Shown here: one piece after another, positions 3,506-15,195 of the stretch
Layout of the letters: each line of letters begins with the position of its first letter
Numbering within the stretch: the stretch's first letter is position 1
Source: Thermoanaerobaculia bacterium
GTDB taxonomy: Bacteria; Acidobacteriota; Thermoanaerobaculia; Multivoradales; JAHEKO01
Length of the DNA: 57,955 nt
Reading direction: 5' to 3'
NCBI GenBank assembly: GCA_945787635.1
Contig: CALZIK010000067.1
Location: 1 to 57,955, forward strand
Made by a program: the position numbers and the translations under genes
The notes under the pieces: model-generated
What the model saw: the letters and a program-made list of their open reading frames with translations, nothing else
Told to the model about the DNA's origin: nothing
Database searches by the model: none

Positions 3506-4471
3506 CTAGCCCACCAGCCGGCGCAAGAGGCGCGAATGCGGGCGGCGTCCGTCGAACCGCCAGAGACCGACGCCGCGGGCGATGACGCGGGCCTCGGCGA
3601 GCTCGGTCGGCTCGAGGCGTCGGTTGATTTCGGCGAAGCGCGTACCCCTCACGCGGCCGGCGGGACGGTACTGATCCATCAGATTGACATAGGTGTCGCG
3701 GCCGAGCTCGGCGGCGGTCCACTCGAGGATCGCTCGCGTCTCATCGAGACCCTCAGGCATCACCAGGTGGCGCAAAAGCAGACCCCGCCGAGCGAGGCCA
3801 TCCTCGTCCAAGGTGAGCGGGCCGACCTGGCGGTGCATCTCGCGGATCGCGGCGCGGGCGGTCTCCGGGTAGTTCTCGGCGGCGAGGTACTTGCGGCTCG
3901 CGGCCTGGGTCCAGTACTTGAAATCCGGCATGTAGATGTCGACGATGCCGTCGAGGAGAGCAAGGCTTTCGAGCGAGTCGTAGGCGCTCGTGTTGTAGAC
4001 GATCGGCAGCCGCAGACCGCCCTCGATGGCGAGGGCAACCGCTTCGACCACTTGCGGCGCCACGTGCTCCGGGGTAACGAGATTGATGTTGTGGCAGCCC
4101 AGGGCTTGGAGCTCGAGCATCGTGCCGGCGATCTCTTGCGGAGGCGAGGCGCGCTCGGTGCGCACCTTGATGGCCTGGCTGATGTCATGGTTCTGGCAAA
4201 AGACGCAGCGCAGGTTGCAGTGCGAGAAGAAGATCGTCCCCGATCCTCTCCAACCTCGAAGACAGTCCTCCTCGCCCAGGTGGGGGAAGGAGCTGGAGAC
4301 GATCGCGTAGCGGCCCGTCTTGCAGACGGCCACCTCGTCCTCCAGCCGATTGACGTCGCAGTCCCGCGGGCAGACACGGCAAAGCTCGAGGGCGGCGCGC
4401 GCTCTCTCGGTCCGGGCGGCAAGCTCCCCCGGAGGCAGGTCGAGATAGGCGGGTCCGTCGTGTTCAGGCAC
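3506..4471 (-). CDS. PflX-type radical SAM protein (PFL-activase-like)
   Basis: A 321-residue radical SAM enzyme of the PflX/COG1313 type, related to pyruvate formate-lyase activating enzymes. The SAM-cluster motif is C85-x3-C89-x2-C92 (CNLRCVFCQN), preceded by GSGTIFF. An N-terminal Cys group C31, C34, C38 and C50 (CRVCPRDC...C) may hold a second iron-sulfur cluster. CHNINLVTP and DIYMPDFKYW are further family landmarks. The substrate is unknown; these enzymes often create glycyl radicals or modify proteins. It starts with GTG 45 nt after the octaheme cytochrome gene, so co-expression is likely, and a maturation role for a neighbour is conceivable. TAGGCT 9 nt before the GTG hints at a second promoter. 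Confidence 0.85.
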   Translation of the reverse strand: MPEHDGPAYLDLPPGELAARTERARAALELCRVCPRDCDVNRLEDEVAVCKTGRYAIVSSSFPHLGEEDCLRGWRGSGTIFFSHCNLRCVFCQNHDISQAIKVRTERASPPQEIAGTMLELQALGCHNINLVTPEHVAPQVVEAVALAIEGGLRLPIVYNTSAYDSLESLALLDGIVDIYMPDFKYWTQAASRKYLAAENYPETARAAIREMHRQVGPLTLDEDGLARRGLLLRHLVMPEGLDETRAILEWTAAELGRDTYVNLMDQYRPAGRVRGTRFAEINRRLEPTELAEARVIARGVGLWRFDGRRPHSRLLRRLVG

Positions 4472-4516: not shown

Positions 4517-5974
4517 CTACGATCCGTAGCGCTTCATGAACTCCTCCTGCGCGCGACGGCGCTTTTCCTGCTCCTCCGGGCTGATCTTGCCGGTGTACCA
4601 GGCATGCTCGGGCCGGGCCAGATGGTCCTCGATAGCCTGCGCCAGCTGCTTGGCCGCCTCGACACGCGCGGAGTCCTCTGAATGGAGGTTCGTCTCGACG
4701 ATCTCACGCAGTTCGGGGATGAACTTCGAGTACCAGTGCTTGGCCACTTCGTAGAGGCCGTGCCAATGGGTGTAGTCGGGCGCCATCATCGACGCGCCGT
4801 GGCGCGCGACCCGGCCTTCGTGATGCCAGATTTCCCACCATGTCCATTCGACCTGCTCGTCGAACTGGACCGGTGTGACCAGTTGCTTCTCCTTCAGCAA
4901 CTTCATGAAAGCCATGCCCGGCTCTGCGAACTTGCTGTTGTAGAGCTCGATGACCCCGTCGTATTGCTCGTAGAAGTTGTCGACGTAGGGCCTGGTGTGG
5001 CAGACGGTGCAGACCTCGATCATGTTGGCCCGTCGGGTCTGCCAACCGACGGCCGCCATCTTTGTCAGGCCGAGTTTGGCGTCGGAGATCTCCGGACGGA
5101 TCGATGCCGGCGGCCGGTTGTTCCAACTGATCCGCAAGCCGACATCATGGGTTACCGGAACGAAGTCGCCGTCGGTCGTGCGCACGGCCGACATGTGGCA
5201 AGTGGCGCAGGTCGGCGCCGCCGTGTAGTCCTCACCCAGCACCCACTTCGGGCTGTCGAGGTTGAGCTCGTCCTCATGGGCCCTGAAGGCGATCCCGTGC
5301 TTGGACTCTTCGTAGATCTCCTTTTGCGGGTGATCGGGGCCGAGGTGGCACTTGCCGCAGTTCTCCGGACGCCGAGCCTGGGCCGCGGAGAACTGGTGAC
5401 GCTGGTGGCATGCCGTGCAGGCGCCGATCGAGCCGTCGGGATTGACACGGCCCATGCCCGTGTTGGGCCAGCCGGTGGGCTTGAGCGAGCCGTCGTCGTT
5501 GACCTCGACGACCGCGCCGTGACACTGCTGGCAGCCGCTGACCGTCAGCGCCGAGCCGCCGTAGAAGTTGGTGTCGCCCTCGACGACGTCGGCCAGGAAG
5601 TTGTCGAGCGAGCCGAGAATCAGCCCGGCCTTGGCGTGATGACTCTCGTCGAACTCGTTGCGCTCCTTCTCGTGGCAGCGGGCGCAATCCTGAGGGGAGA
5701 CTATGATCGCGATCGTCGAGCCGTTGTGGTCGAAGGCGTCCGCGTCGGCTTCGTCGGCGCGATGGCACTCGTAGCAGCCGACGTTGCCGCGATAGTGTTT
5801 GGAGCGACCCCACTGTTGATAGATTCCGGCGGTCGTGTCGACATGGCACTCGACACAGAGGAGAGTCTCCTCCGACAGGGTTGTCGGGGTTATCTTGTCG
5901 GCGCTTGAGGGCCCTGCGACCAGAAGCAGCAGGACGACCAGCAAGGCGAAACGGGATGAAAGCGGTGATCTCAT
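4517..5974 (-). CDS. Octaheme cytochrome c, hydroxylamine oxidoreductase-like
   Basis: A 485-residue secreted multiheme cytochrome. Eight CxxCH sites are present at residues 40, 67, 97, 148, 186, 206, 256 and 322, the count and spacing of the HAO family. The C-terminal half has further HAO-type stretches (ESKHGIAF, WWEIWHHEGR, MMAPDYTHWHG). These enzymes work in the periplasm on hydroxylamine, nitrite or hydrazine. Which direction applies depends on whether the catalytic P460-type Tyr crosslink is present, which needs a structural alignment. The start at 5974 was chosen over 6007 because AAAGGAG lies a few nt upstream and it is followed directly by a signal peptide (residues 1-25). The radical SAM gene follows at 45 nt. 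Confidence 0.9.
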   Translation of the reverse strand: MRSPLSSRFALLVVLLLLVAGPSSADKITPTTLSEETLLCVECHVDTTAGIYQQWGRSKHYRGNVGCYECHRADEADADAFDHNGSTIAIIVSPQDCARCHEKERNEFDESHHAKAGLILGSLDNFLADVVEGDTNFYGGSALTVSGCQQCHGAVVEVNDDGSLKPTGWPNTGMGRVNPDGSIGACTACHQRHQFSAAQARRPENCGKCHLGPDHPQKEIYEESKHGIAFRAHEDELNLDSPKWVLGEDYTAAPTCATCHMSAVRTTDGDFVPVTHDVGLRISWNNRPPASIRPEISDAKLGLTKMAAVGWQTRRANMIEVCTVCHTRPYVDNFYEQYDGVIELYNSKFAEPGMAFMKLLKEKQLVTPVQFDEQVEWTWWEIWHHEGRVARHGASMMAPDYTHWHGLYEVAKHWYSKFIPELREIVETNLHSEDSARVEAAKQLAQAIEDHLARPEHAWYTGKISPEEQEKRRRAQEEFMKRYGS

Positions 5975-6048
5975 GAACGCTCCTTTCTGCCGGATGGCGG
6001 ATTCCACTCGATGACGAGTTTAGCCCCCAACAGCTTTGGCACGAGCGG

Positions 6049-6118: not shown

Positions 6119-6233
6119 AGAGACTCGCGGTTCTTTGAACCTGGCTGCCTCGGGTCCAACGAAATCTCGCCAAGGGGAGAGCGTCCGGGTCCGGATGTGG
6201 GTGCGGCCGTCTAAATGGAGAGGATGGAAGATC

Positions 6234-6695
6234 ATGGAGACCAACCGGGCTGAACAACTCTTGGCCCAAGGCTACGTGTGAGCGGAGTCCGTGCTCCTGG
6301 CCGTGTGCCAGGAATGCGACGTAGAAGTCGATCGCAAGGTCGTTCCCGGAATCGCGTTCGGCTTCGCCGGCGGGATCGGCAACAGTGGTTCGGTTTGCGG
6401 CGCCGTCGCGGGAGGCGTGATGGCTCTTTCGCTTCTCACGGAGAAGGGCGAGACCATGGGCGAGGCGCTCCGGGCGTTGGGTATGGCGGGGGAGTTTCGC
6501 CGGCGCTTCGAGGCCGAGATGAAGACGATCTCCTGCCGAGAGTTGACCGGGCTCGATCTGAGCACCGAGGAGGGAATCGAGCAGCTGATGAGTTCCGACA
6601 TATCCCAGACGGTCTGCTTTCCGGCGGTCGGCTTGGCGTACAAGTTGGCCCTCGACCTGCTGAAAGAGGCATCGGAGTCCGACTCGGAACACTGA
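6234..6695 (+). CDS. C_GCAxxG_C_C redox protein, probable selenoprotein (Sec at codon 16, TGA 6279-6281)
   Basis: Read through one in-frame TGA, this is a 153-residue protein of the C_GCAxxG_C_C family of putative redox proteins. The four family positions are Sec16 (TGA), C55 in CGAVAG, C101 and C128; C25 and C28 are extra. Family members carry a Cys in the N-terminal GY-x-C-AxSVL context; here the frame reads GYV, TGA, AESVLL, so the stop codon sits exactly at that Cys. Both halves are in the same frame and together give a full-length protein. The ATG at 6234 has GGAAG 3 nt upstream and GGAGAGG further up. A SECIS-like hairpin follows the TGA. Some family members are known selenoproteins as I recall. 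The function is probably thiol/selenol redox chemistry. Automated callers would truncate it or start it at 6291. Confidence 0.8.
6290..6318 (+). promoter_or_regulatory. Bacterial SECIS-like hairpin downstream of TGA 6279-6281
   Basis: CCTGGC (6296-6301) and GCCAGG (6307-6312) form a perfect 6-bp stem closed on the 5-nt loop CGTGT. The stem extends by T6295-A6313 and, after one mismatch, by four more pairs (two of them G-U) to C6290-G6318. The loop begins 21 nt after the TGA and has G as its second base. Both the distance and the loop G fit the bacterial SECIS pattern recognised by SelB. Confidence 0.7.
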
Positions 6696-10939: not shown

Positions 10940-11992
10940 CTACTTCTCGGTCGGCGAGCCGCCCGAGACCGTTGCCGCGTCCTCTACCGTTCCCTTGATC
11001 TGCCAGCGGATGGTCGGACGCTTGGCCAAGTTGGTGTGGACCACGATCTCGCCGTCGAACTCGCCGCTCGGGACGCGTTCCGGATCGAACACGGCCGCCA
11101 CCTCGTAGATGTAGCCTTCCTCCTGGGTCGTGATCTCGGTCGTGACGCCCGCGAGATCGAGCGCGACGCGCTCGATGGTCATCGGCGCGCTGCCGAAGTT
11201 GCGCACCTCGTAGCGAGCCCGCCGTGGGCCGGAGAGAGAGAAGCTCCCCAGGTCGGTCACGCTCGGAGAGACGAACACCAGCGGACGCACGAAGCCGGAG
11301 ACCGGGATGTGGACGTTCCTCTGCTCGGGATGCGTGGTCCGGATCTCAGCGTAGCCTTGGATGGCCCCGATCGGAGGCTCGGCGCCGAGCGTGAGATCGA
11401 CCCTCCATTGCCGGCCCTCGTACCCCTCGTACCGCTCCTCGTCGGCGGCGGCACGCACCTTCGCCGTGATGTCCCCGTAGGTCACCACGACCTCCGAGAC
11501 CTCGAAGGGCTTCCCGTCGAGCGGCCAAAGAGTGATTCCGATCGTTCCCTCGGTCTCGGTCTCGACGGTGTTCCAGCGAGCGGAGCCGGGCCGGGCTCCC
11601 AGGTAGGGCCGCACAGTGGCGGTGATTGCCAGCTCGAGCTCGGCATTGAGCGGATCCGAGGTCGCCACCCGGATCGTGGTGTGGAGGCGACCCACCAATG
11701 TCCGGGTGTCGAGCTTCGCCCGGATCACGCCGCTCTTGCCCGGCTCGATCGAGCGGTCGAAATCGGCGATCGTGCAACCACAGGTCGGTCGCGCCGACTC
11801 GATGACCAGTTCGGAGTCGCCCTCATTGCGGATCTCGAACTCGTGAAAGACGACGTCGCCCTTGGCCACCTCGCCGAGCTCGACCGAGGGCTCGGGCACC
11901 ACCGCCCTCGGCTGCGCTCGAGCCGCCTCGGCTCCGAGGAAGGCGAGACAGCAAACGAGGCCCAGAGCGGGACGACAATCGGTACTGTTCAT
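10940..11992 (-). CDS. Exported DUF1573-domain protein
   Basis: A 350-residue exported protein with a signal peptide (about residues 1-27, ending ARAQ) and an Ig-like DUF1573 domain: VELGEVAKGDVVFHEFEIRNEG followed by PTCGCT, the hallmark of this family. The rest is two or three beta-sandwich repeats of the same style (PSVTDLGSFSLSGPRRARYEVRNFG). Such proteins are periplasmic or surface proteins with no defined activity. The ATG at 11992 was preferred over upstream ATGs at 12019 and 12049 because it places the signal peptide at the N-terminus; no strong ribosome binding site is present. It is convergent with the GDPD gene. Confidence 0.75.
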   Translation of the reverse strand: MNSTDCRPALGLVCCLAFLGAEAARAQPRAVVPEPSVELGEVAKGDVVFHEFEIRNEGDSELVIESARPTCGCTIADFDRSIEPGKSGVIRAKLDTRTLVGRLHTTIRVATSDPLNAELELAITATVRPYLGARPGSARWNTVETETEGTIGITLWPLDGKPFEVSEVVVTYGDITAKVRAAADEERYEGYEGRQWRVDLTLGAEPPIGAIQGYAEIRTTHPEQRNVHIPVSGFVRPLVFVSPSVTDLGSFSLSGPRRARYEVRNFGSAPMTIERVALDLAGVTTEITTQEEGYIYEVAAVFDPERVPSGEFDGEIVVHTNLAKRPTIRWQIKGTVEDAATVSGGSPTEK

Positions 11993-12019
11993 TTCGATGC
12001 TCGACCGGCAGTTTAGCAT

Positions 12020-12049
12020 TTGACAGCTCGGACCAACCTCGTTTAGCAT
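12020..12049 (+). promoter_or_regulatory. Promoter of the tandem exported paralogs, with GTTTAGCAT direct repeats
   Basis: TTGACA (12020-12025), an 18-nt spacer and TAGCAT (12044-12049) make a plausible sigma-70 promoter 79 nt before the ATG at 12128. GTTTAGCAT occurs twice, at 12011-12019 and 12041-12049, 30 nt apart centre to centre, flanking the -35 and covering the -10, so it could be an operator repeat. Confidence 0.5.
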
Positions 12050-12127: not shown

Positions 12128-13660
12128 ATGAGAGGATTCGCTCTTCTGGCCACGTTGCTGGTCCTGGTTCCGAGTACGTCCGCGAAGGCTGAGCTCTGCA
12201 CCATTGACTCGGTGCCGGCGGCGACCTTGCTGTTGCCGTATTTCGAGGTCGATCTCAACTCACTGGATGGCGTCAACACGCTGTTCTCGATCAACAACGC
12301 GTCAGCTACGCCGACCGTGGCTCGCGTCACCCTCTGGGGCGACTGGTCGCAGCCGACGATCGCCTTCAACGTGTTTCTCACCGGCTACGACGTTGAGACC
12401 TTCAGCCTGCGGAACATGTTCGTTTTTGGGAACATCCCGATCACTGCGCACGCGTTCAACGACACCGGCGACCTGATCAGTCCGCACGGCAACAACCCGC
12501 AGTGGGACTCGGACCCCGACGAGGCTACCAACGCTCGATTCATGGGCTGCGATACCAACATACCGATCGGCCCCAACCCCGTCCTCACGCCGAAGCCGCC
12601 GCAGTTCGTGGACTACCTCGCTCGCATTCGCGACGGTCACACGGGCAAGCCGGTTGATGGGCTCTCAACGGACCAATGCGTTGGAGCCGACTACGGCGAC
12701 AACATCGCTCGCGGCTACATCACGATCGACAACGTCGTCGATTGCACCCATCTCTTTCCGGATGAGCTCGGTGGAATTTACTTCGGTGCCGGCGGCGTCG
12801 CCAGCAACGTCAACCAGCTCTGGGGCGATTGGTTCATCGTCAATGACTCGGCCGGGTTCGCCCAGGGCGACAACCTGGTGCATATCGAAGCCGATCCCGG
12901 CGGGGGCTTCGCCGCCGGCGATTACACCTTCTACGGCCGCTACGTCGCCGGTCTCGCGACGGATCAGCGAGAGCCGCTGGCAACGACTTGGGCCGCGAGG
13001 TATTTCAACACCGCCGGAAACCCCGCCGCCGTATTCGATGGCGGCACGGACTTGATCGTCTGGCGCGATTCGAAGTGCCAAACGTCTGCGAACGGTCATC
13101 TCTGCACGGGCCAGACCGGGGATGTCGGTCCGGGGTGGTTGCCTCTCGACGAGACGCAGGTGGTCGCGTTCGACCTGTCCGAGCAGGCGGCCCAGATCTG
13201 CGATGACATCTTCATCCCCGGCGGCGGCGGAATCTCGCCGCCACCGCCGGACATCATTAACCCGGTCCAGTGCTTCCCACTCGAGACCCAGCGGGCTGCG
13301 ATCGGGCAGGGAGACTTGGATCCGCCGTTCGACTTCGGCTGGATGTATCTCAATCTCAACTTCACCCTCGGCGACACCTCGGGCCGGGCCACTCCGTGCT
13401 CGACCGACGGGCTCTTTGGCGACATCGCCCAGAGCTGGGTGACCACCAACATGAAGGCGTTCGCGGGCGAGTTTACCGTTGGTTTCGCCGGGGTGCAGCT
13501 GATCTCGGCGTGCGCCACGAGCTTCTCCGCCTGCGCGATCGACGGTAATAGCTGCTTCGACGACACCGACTGTGTGGGTGGCACGGCGGAACCGGGGCCG
13601 GGCGGCGACGATTGCACATTCTTTCCGGCGAACCAGATCATCACGGGCGATCTCGGCTGA
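12128..13660 (+). CDS. Exported protein of unknown function, paralog 1
   Basis: A 510-residue secreted protein with signal peptide (residues 1-21, AKA-E) and a very strong ribosome binding site (AGGGAGGAAG). I do not recognise the family. It is a close paralog of the next gene; shared blocks include LCTID then VPAATLLLPYFEV, DTLFSINNASA-type, TLWGDWS, LTGYDVET, NPQWDSDPDE, YGDNIARGYITIDNV, NQLWGDWFIVN and LATDQREPLATTWAARY. The C-terminus holds several Cys pairs (SACAIDGNSCFDDTDC) that suggest disulfides. A proline/glycine loop (GGGGISPPPPD) is unique to this copy. It is likely a periplasmic or surface beta-rich protein (inference). It starts its own transcription unit from the promoter at 12020-12049. 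Confidence 0.8.
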   Translation: MRGFALLATLLVLVPSTSAKAELCTIDSVPAATLLLPYFEVDLNSLDGVNTLFSINNASATPTVARVTLWGDWSQPTIAFNVFLTGYDVETFSLRNMFVFGNIPITAHAFNDTGDLISPHGNNPQWDSDPDEATNARFMGCDTNIPIGPNPVLTPKPPQFVDYLARIRDGHTGKPVDGLSTDQCVGADYGDNIARGYITIDNVVDCTHLFPDELGGIYFGAGGVASNVNQLWGDWFIVNDSAGFAQGDNLVHIEADPGGGFAAGDYTFYGRYVAGLATDQREPLATTWAARYFNTAGNPAAVFDGGTDLIVWRDSKCQTSANGHLCTGQTGDVGPGWLPLDETQVVAFDLSEQAAQICDDIFIPGGGGISPPPPDIINPVQCFPLETQRAAIGQGDLDPPFDFGWMYLNLNFTLGDTSGRATPCSTDGLFGDIAQSWVTTNMKAFAGEFTVGFAGVQLISACATSFSACAIDGNSCFDDTDCVGGTAEPGPGGDDCTFFPANQIITGDLG

Positions 13661-13743
13661 TGACACGGGATTTCGATAACGACCTCGCTCGACGACCTCA
13701 TGGACCGGCCTCGCGAGCCGCGAGTGGAATAGAGGAGAGACGG

Positions 13744-15195
13744 ATGAGAAAAGAACTTAGTTGTCTGGCCCTGGCGGCCTTCGCCCTTGCTTCCGCCCCC
13801 GTTGCGGCCGAGCTCTGCACGATCGACGCGGTGCCGGCGGCAACCCTGCTCTTACCCTACTTCGAGGTCGGCTTGGACGGTTCCAGCGACGTCGATACCT
13901 TGTTCTCGATCAACAACGCGTCGGCCGTGCCGACCGTAGCCCACGTCACGTTGTGGGGTGACTGGTCACTACCGACAATCGACTTCGACATCTTTCTGAC
14001 CGGCTACGACGTCGAGACGGTCAGCTTGAGGAACGTGTTCCTCAACGGCAATCTCCCGATCACCGCGCATGCGTTTAACGACACCACTGACGTGATCAGC
14101 CCCCACAGCGGCGCTTTGACCGACAACCCCCAGTGGGACTCGGACCCCGACGAACCCACCAACCCCCGGTTCATGGGGTGCGATCCCAATCTGCCCCTCG
14201 GCCCCAACCCGGTCCTGACCGGGGCCTTCTTCGACCGGATCCGCTGCGGCCACACCGGTCTAGGCCTCGCCTGCGACTCCACGAACTGCGTCGGCGGGAG
14301 CCACGGCGACAACATCGCCCGCGGCTACATCACGATCGACAACGTCACGGACTGCAATCTGCTGTTTCCCAATAGCGCGGGCTATTTCGGCGCCGGCGGT
14401 TTCGCCAGCAACGTCAACCAGCTCTGGGGCGACTGGTTCATCGTCAACGGCTCCGACGGGTTCGCCCAGGGCGACAACCTGGTGCACATCGAGGCCTCCA
14501 ACTCGGGAACCTTCGCCGCCGGGGACTACACCTTCTACGGCCGCTATGTCGATGGTCTGGCGACCGATCAGCGCGAGCCGCTGGCCACGACCTGGGCGGC
14601 GCGCTACCTGAACGGCGGTTCCTTCGACGGTGGCACCGACTATCTGGTCTGGCGCGACTCGAAGTGCCAGACCGCGGTTCAGGGGTTCACTTGCGGCGAC
14701 CCGGTGGCCAACCCTTCGGTGGGTCCGCCCTGGTTCGGGCTGGGCCAGACCCAGATCGTCGCCTTCGACCTTGCCGAGCAGGCGGCCGAGCTGTGCGGAA
14801 GCACCTCTTGCTTGCCGCTCGAGACTCAGCGTGTGACCGTGGGGGCGGCGCCCCTCGATCCGCCGTTCGAATTCGGCTGGATGTACCTCAATCTCAACCA
14901 CACCCTCGGCGACACCTCGGGGCACACGCCGCCCTGCTCGACCGACGGACTCTACGGCCCGATCGGCCAGAGTTGGGTCTCGACCAACATGATGGGCTTC
15001 GCGTCGCGTTTGACCGTCGGCGTCGCGGCCCAGCAACTCACGTCGGCCTGCCTGCCATCGGGGGCCGCGTTCGTCTGCGATGCTGACGGCGACAGTTGCA
15101 CCACGGACGCTGAGTGCGACGATGGGGCGACGAGCCTGGCTGCAGGCGACTTCTGCCAGAGAGGGGCCAGCCCGATCATCACGTTCAATCCGTAG
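13744..15195 (+). CDS. Exported protein of unknown function, paralog 2
   Basis: A 483-residue secreted paralog of the preceding gene, 83 nt downstream on the same strand, with its own signal peptide (about residues 1-21, APVAA-E) and Shine-Dalgarno site (GAGGAGAG). The two proteins align end to end by eye, from the first Cys (LCTID) to the Cys-rich tail (CDADGDSCTTDAECDDG), with variable loops between. The tandem arrangement points to a local duplication. The start at 13744 was chosen over the upstream in-frame ATG at 13612, which lies inside paralog 1. Its last 11 bp overlap tail to tail with the minus-strand FG-GAP gene. Confidence 0.8.
   Translation: MRKELSCLALAAFALASAPVAAELCTIDAVPAATLLLPYFEVGLDGSSDVDTLFSINNASAVPTVAHVTLWGDWSLPTIDFDIFLTGYDVETVSLRNVFLNGNLPITAHAFNDTTDVISPHSGALTDNPQWDSDPDEPTNPRFMGCDPNLPLGPNPVLTGAFFDRIRCGHTGLGLACDSTNCVGGSHGDNIARGYITIDNVTDCNLLFPNSAGYFGAGGFASNVNQLWGDWFIVNGSDGFAQGDNLVHIEASNSGTFAAGDYTFYGRYVDGLATDQREPLATTWAARYLNGGSFDGGTDYLVWRDSKCQTAVQGFTCGDPVANPSVGPPWFGLGQTQIVAFDLAEQAAELCGSTSCLPLETQRVTVGAAPLDPPFEFGWMYLNLNHTLGDTSGHTPPCSTDGLYGPIGQSWVSTNMMGFASRLTVGVAAQQLTSACLPSGAAFVCDADGDSCTTDAECDDGATSLAAGDFCQRGASPIITFNP

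Follow-up and report, generated by a model that had tools for sequence, protein, structure and literature searches.

The window, as we call the whole 57,955-nt stretch analysed here, is contig CALZIK010000067.1 of a Thermoanaerobaculia bacterium (Acidobacteriota, assembly GCA_945787635.1). Within it, a short gene stands alone between two genes on the opposite strand, with a divergent gene for a multi-haem cytochrome c on its upstream side and, on its downstream side, a convergent one for a PD40 beta-propeller protein (Table 1). No promoter was detected by a scan of the locus, and the only terminator-like site falls within the gene. Around the homologues examined, neither the pairing with cytochrome c nor any other conserved neighbourhood was seen. 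Elsewhere in the window, positions 3506-4471 (minus strand) encode a Radical SAM protein weakly similar to the AmmeMemoRadiSam system enzyme, and positions 12128-13660 and 13612-15195 (plus strand) encode two neighbouring paralogues (510 and 527 aa) that match no Pfam family. A DUF1573 protein with a PTCGC motif, i.e. the Cys form, is encoded at 10940-12049 on the minus strand; DUF1573 proteins with UGC are listed as selenoproteins (PMC13188914).

Table 1 Features of the predicted selenoprotein locus and its divergent neighbour.
Feature	Position	Strand	Remarks
Predicted selenoprotein gene, C_GCAxxG_C_C family (PF09719 / TIGR01909)	6234..6695	+	153 residues with Sec16
Start and terminator	ATG 6234; TGA 6693-6695	+	
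In-frame TGA, predicted to be read as selenocysteine	6279..6281	+	Column of first invariant Cys; Cys in homologues, TGA in L027 and L068
CGAVAG motif, the GCAxxG signature of the family	6396..6413	+	C55 at 6396-6398; translation, alignment
C101, third invariant Cys	6534..6536	+	
C128, fourth invariant Cys	6615..6617	+	
Purine-rich stretch AGGATGGAA 5' of the ATG	6222..6230	+	Probably the ribosome-binding site, judged from sequence
SECIS-like hairpin TCCTGGC-CGTGT-GCCAGGA	6295..6313	+	Loop 6302-6306; G at loop position 2
Predicted tryptic peptide spanning Sec16			AEQLLAQGYV-U-AESVLLAVCQECDVEVDR
Divergent neighbour, multi-haem cytochrome c	4517..6007	-	Signal-peptide-like N terminus

The frame is interrupted by a single internal stop, the TGA at codon 16. 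A preliminary description of this DNA had proposed that the TGA joins two halves of one family protein, and the profile match bears this out. The read-through protein scores 78 bits against PF09719 (cut-off 27) over residues 14-139, so that the match starts before the TGA and runs across it; the part after the TGA alone scores 66 bits. TIGR01909 is matched with 66.8 bits (cut-off 47.4). No other PF09719 member was found in this genome. The hallmark of the family is four cysteines plus CGAxxG, and the window protein carries C55, C101 and C128, as had been described, with the predicted Sec at the first position.

The selenoprotein status of this family is already catalogued, and the window gene adds one member to it. 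C-GCAxxG-C-C proteins (PF09719) are among the prokaryotic selenoprotein families in two reviews, of 2022 and 2026, as forms 1 and 2, which belong to the same Pfam family as the window protein and likewise take their Sec from an in-frame UGA (PMC9312934, PMC13188914). Form 1 is assigned to reference 60 of the 2026 review, a study of Olavius algarvensis symbionts, and form 2 to WP_012158890.1 (PMC13188914). The reviews give neither motif nor position for the Sec of either form. The title of the TIGR01909 model in NCBIfam reads '(seleno)protein'. Another NCBIfam model, NF045501 (HUGP/GUXX-star fusion selenoprotein), matches residues 4-132 with its positions 12-144; the score of 57 bits is far below the cut-off of 325, and the window protein lacks both the fusion and the C-terminal GUxx end.

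A search with the query protein (P0001) covered 396 genomes of the phylum, and 30 loci, the window's own left out, were aligned. Column 16 is Cys in all 30 (TGT in 16, TGC in 14), and the other in-frame stops among these loci lie at the C-terminal end. In the resulting 31-sequence alignment the invariant cysteines are C16, C55, C101 and C128. The TGA thus occupies the place of the first of the four conserved cysteines, as the preliminary description had it, and every intact homologue examined in the phylum has Cys there; an in-frame UGA aligned to the Cys of homologues makes this a Cys/Sec pair. In the close subfamily, Cys is found at column 16 in L028 (two tandem copies) and L029, and TGA at exactly codon 16 in L027 (Nitrospiraceae MAG CP070644.1) and L068 (genome G764). 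The only same-genus copy found, L025 (G001:C550:12026-12175), runs for 50 codons with CGA at codon 16 and then passes into unrelated sequence; it is either what remains of the gene or the result of an assembly join. SelB and tRNA-Sec are present in its genome. L025, with CGA in place of TGA, retains the 7-bp hairpin.

The host has the means to decode such a codon. Its genome (G000) is a draft of 203 contigs, 97.7% complete. A search for selA, selB, selC and selD returned the full set, namely tRNA-Sec (73 bits; tRNA-SeC with anticodon tca by ARAGORN), SelB (342 bits), SelA (426 bits) and two SelD (357 and 268 bits). The first SelD (357 bits) has an in-frame TGA of its own in SLASCAG-U-ASK, where CAG-U-ASK is the usual Sec site of SelD. 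The second SelD domain (G000:C195:21505-22428, minus strand) is of the Cys form (CGGCAAK) and lies within an 864-aa open frame, and it probably belongs to a fusion protein. Seven genomes of the same genus or family were tested for SelB; six gave a score above the cut-off, and the remaining one has the gene apparently split across two contigs.

As the TGA stands at an invariant Cys and selA, selB, selC and selD are all in the genome, Sec recoding is well supported, as is the selenoprotein reading proposed earlier. We put the probability at about 90% that 6234-6695 encodes a C_GCAxxG_C_C selenoprotein with Sec inserted at the UGA, a prediction made from sequence. How Sec is inserted, what the hairpin does and how the protein works we infer as follows. 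Translation would begin at the ATG, and the SelB/Sec-tRNA complex would insert selenocysteine at the UGA, replacing the first of the four invariant cysteines, possibly assisted by the stem-loop just 3' of it. Translation would then continue as far as the terminator (TGA, 6693). Most likely this yields a small, helical redox protein of the cytoplasm. Sec16 may form a selenol/thiol redox pair with at least one of C55, C101 and C128, or may join at least one of them in binding a metal centre.

The hairpin adds little to this reading. The preliminary description had reported a 6-bp perfect stem with a 5-nt loop; the perfect stem and the loop (CGTGT) are there, but the stem (TCCTGGC / GCCAGGA) has 7 bp, and the loop starts 20 nt past the TGA. 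The limits set for bSECIS elements are a loop of 3-9 nt, a stem of 4-16 bp, a G within the first two loop positions, a spacing of 16-37 nt and an energy of at most -7.5 kcal/mol (PMC13188914). The hairpin falls within all of them; its standing against synonymous recodings is not significant. About 14% of recodings do as well or better in bSECIS energy, 19% form 7 bp or more in this register, and eight of the 30 Cys homologues also pass the -7.5 kcal/mol limit. The structure is therefore weak evidence: it is largely imposed by the codons for LLAVCQE and proves little alone. L027, L069 (one of the Nitrospirota copies described below) and the remnant L025 keep exactly this 7-pair register; elsewhere it is shorter (5 pairs in L068 and L028, 3 in L029, 2 in L028b and at most 4 in the 30 phylum Cys homologues). 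This pattern, seen in few lineages, agrees with a function of the hairpin. Codon conservation in the hairpin was not significantly different from that in the rest of the gene (6/8 against 49/81 identical codons).

Selection was estimated as dN/dS by the NG86 method. Between the window gene and L027, codons 17-147 gave 0.24/0.84; between L027 and L068, the overall value was 0.16/0.66, and codons 1-15 gave 0.10/0.92. The family is under purifying selection on both sides of the TGA codon. These values, well below 1, speak against a decaying pseudogene that has acquired a nonsense mutation. The same-genus copy ending after about 50 codons in G001 would fit such decay, but the window frame is otherwise intact over 153 codons with its other three cysteines kept, and a chance nonsense mutation would rarely hit this one codon of 153; we regard decay as highly improbable. 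A sequencing or assembly error, with TGC or TGT as the real codon, would need a one-base difference only, and the genome is a draft in 203 contigs. The same codon is TGA in three separately assembled genomes (the window, L027 and L068), however, and the full Sec toolkit sits in the same genome, which makes an error of this kind the least credible account, with hardly any weight.

If the TGA were a true stop, the functional protein would start downstream, for example at GTG 6291 (134 aa), and would do without the first cysteine. This is the frame that a gene caller would give, and the TGA and TAA copies of genome G450 (see below), for which no Sec machinery was found, differ by ten synonymous to four replacement changes, as if the downstream part were useful. 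Yet every intact relative examined has Cys16, conservation of the protein extends over the first 15 codons, and the complete Sec machinery is present in the host. Moreover, GTG 6291 is GTA in L027, L068 and L069, so that this start is not conserved, and no good ribosome-binding site lies 5' of it. We consider a downstream start very unlikely.

The stop-codon copies in Nitrospirota are an oddity. In G450 the gene is present twice owing to a segmental duplication in the chromosome (911 bp at 96.7%), as L067 (G450:C1:1098600-1099049) and L069 (G450:C1:821107-821556), whose codons 16 are TGA and TAA. TGA/TAA aside, 10 synonymous and 4 replacement changes separate the two copies (P = 0.001 against neutrality, transition bias 4), which show purifying selection. 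No SelB scored above the cut-off in G450, the best match (185 bits) being an EF-Tu-like frame adjoining an EF-G-like one; no tRNA-Sec scored above the cut-off in either G450, where ARAGORN assigned the best two hits to tRNA-Ser, or G764. Since their genomes lack a detected tRNA-Sec, the closest TGA homologues cannot be counted as expressed selenoproteins in their own hosts. In Nitrospirota the gene forms an island of 56-57% GC amid 36-45% GC, and the subfamily clade (support 99/97) brings together TGA and Cys copies of different phyla; jointly these suggest that the gene was transferred between phyla.

The simplest and most likely reading is that the Nitrospirota copies were acquired from Sec users and then stranded, or that their host lost Sec (in G450, after the duplication). 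The change from TGA to TAA would then be neutral and the selection signal mostly inherited. Assembly gaps, or a useful product started downstream, are alternatives for G450 and G764. That the codon-16 stop of these genomes (TGA, and TAA in the duplicate) is read through by another route, independent of SelB and tRNA-Sec, we consider very unlikely.

With Sec predicted in place of an invariant Cys, the function to assume by default is that of a selenol/thiol redox pair; a metal site formed by the four residues would be a fair alternative. In Desulfococcus biacutus, a C_GCAxxG_C_C member was one of the proteins induced by acetone (PMC4103992). The GGISDWGTICGALYGAA stretch of split-Soret cytochrome c from Desulfovibrio desulfuricans (PDB 1h21), a haem protein, aligns with the GCAxxG motif of the family over 31 positions only (E = 0.039), and a relation between the two may be taken as a weak lead. 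AlphaFold2 with four sequences gave an all-helical model (pLDDT 59, pTM 0.63) whose quality was insufficient for locating the four sites. With this model Foldseek returned no match at E <= 0.001, and the best VIA-align Z of 6.3 was within the chance range for helical models. A sequence search of the PDB gave weak or repeat-driven hits only, no relative was found in viral contigs, and PHROGs gave no match.

The window gene is one well-supported addition to a known selenoprotein family, in the genome of a lineage that retains the Sec machinery. It shows Cys/Sec exchange inside one tight subfamily that spans several phyla. The apparently stranded TGA and TAA copies show a possible fate of a selenoprotein gene outside a Sec-using host, and they make the question of how such a stop relates to function testable.
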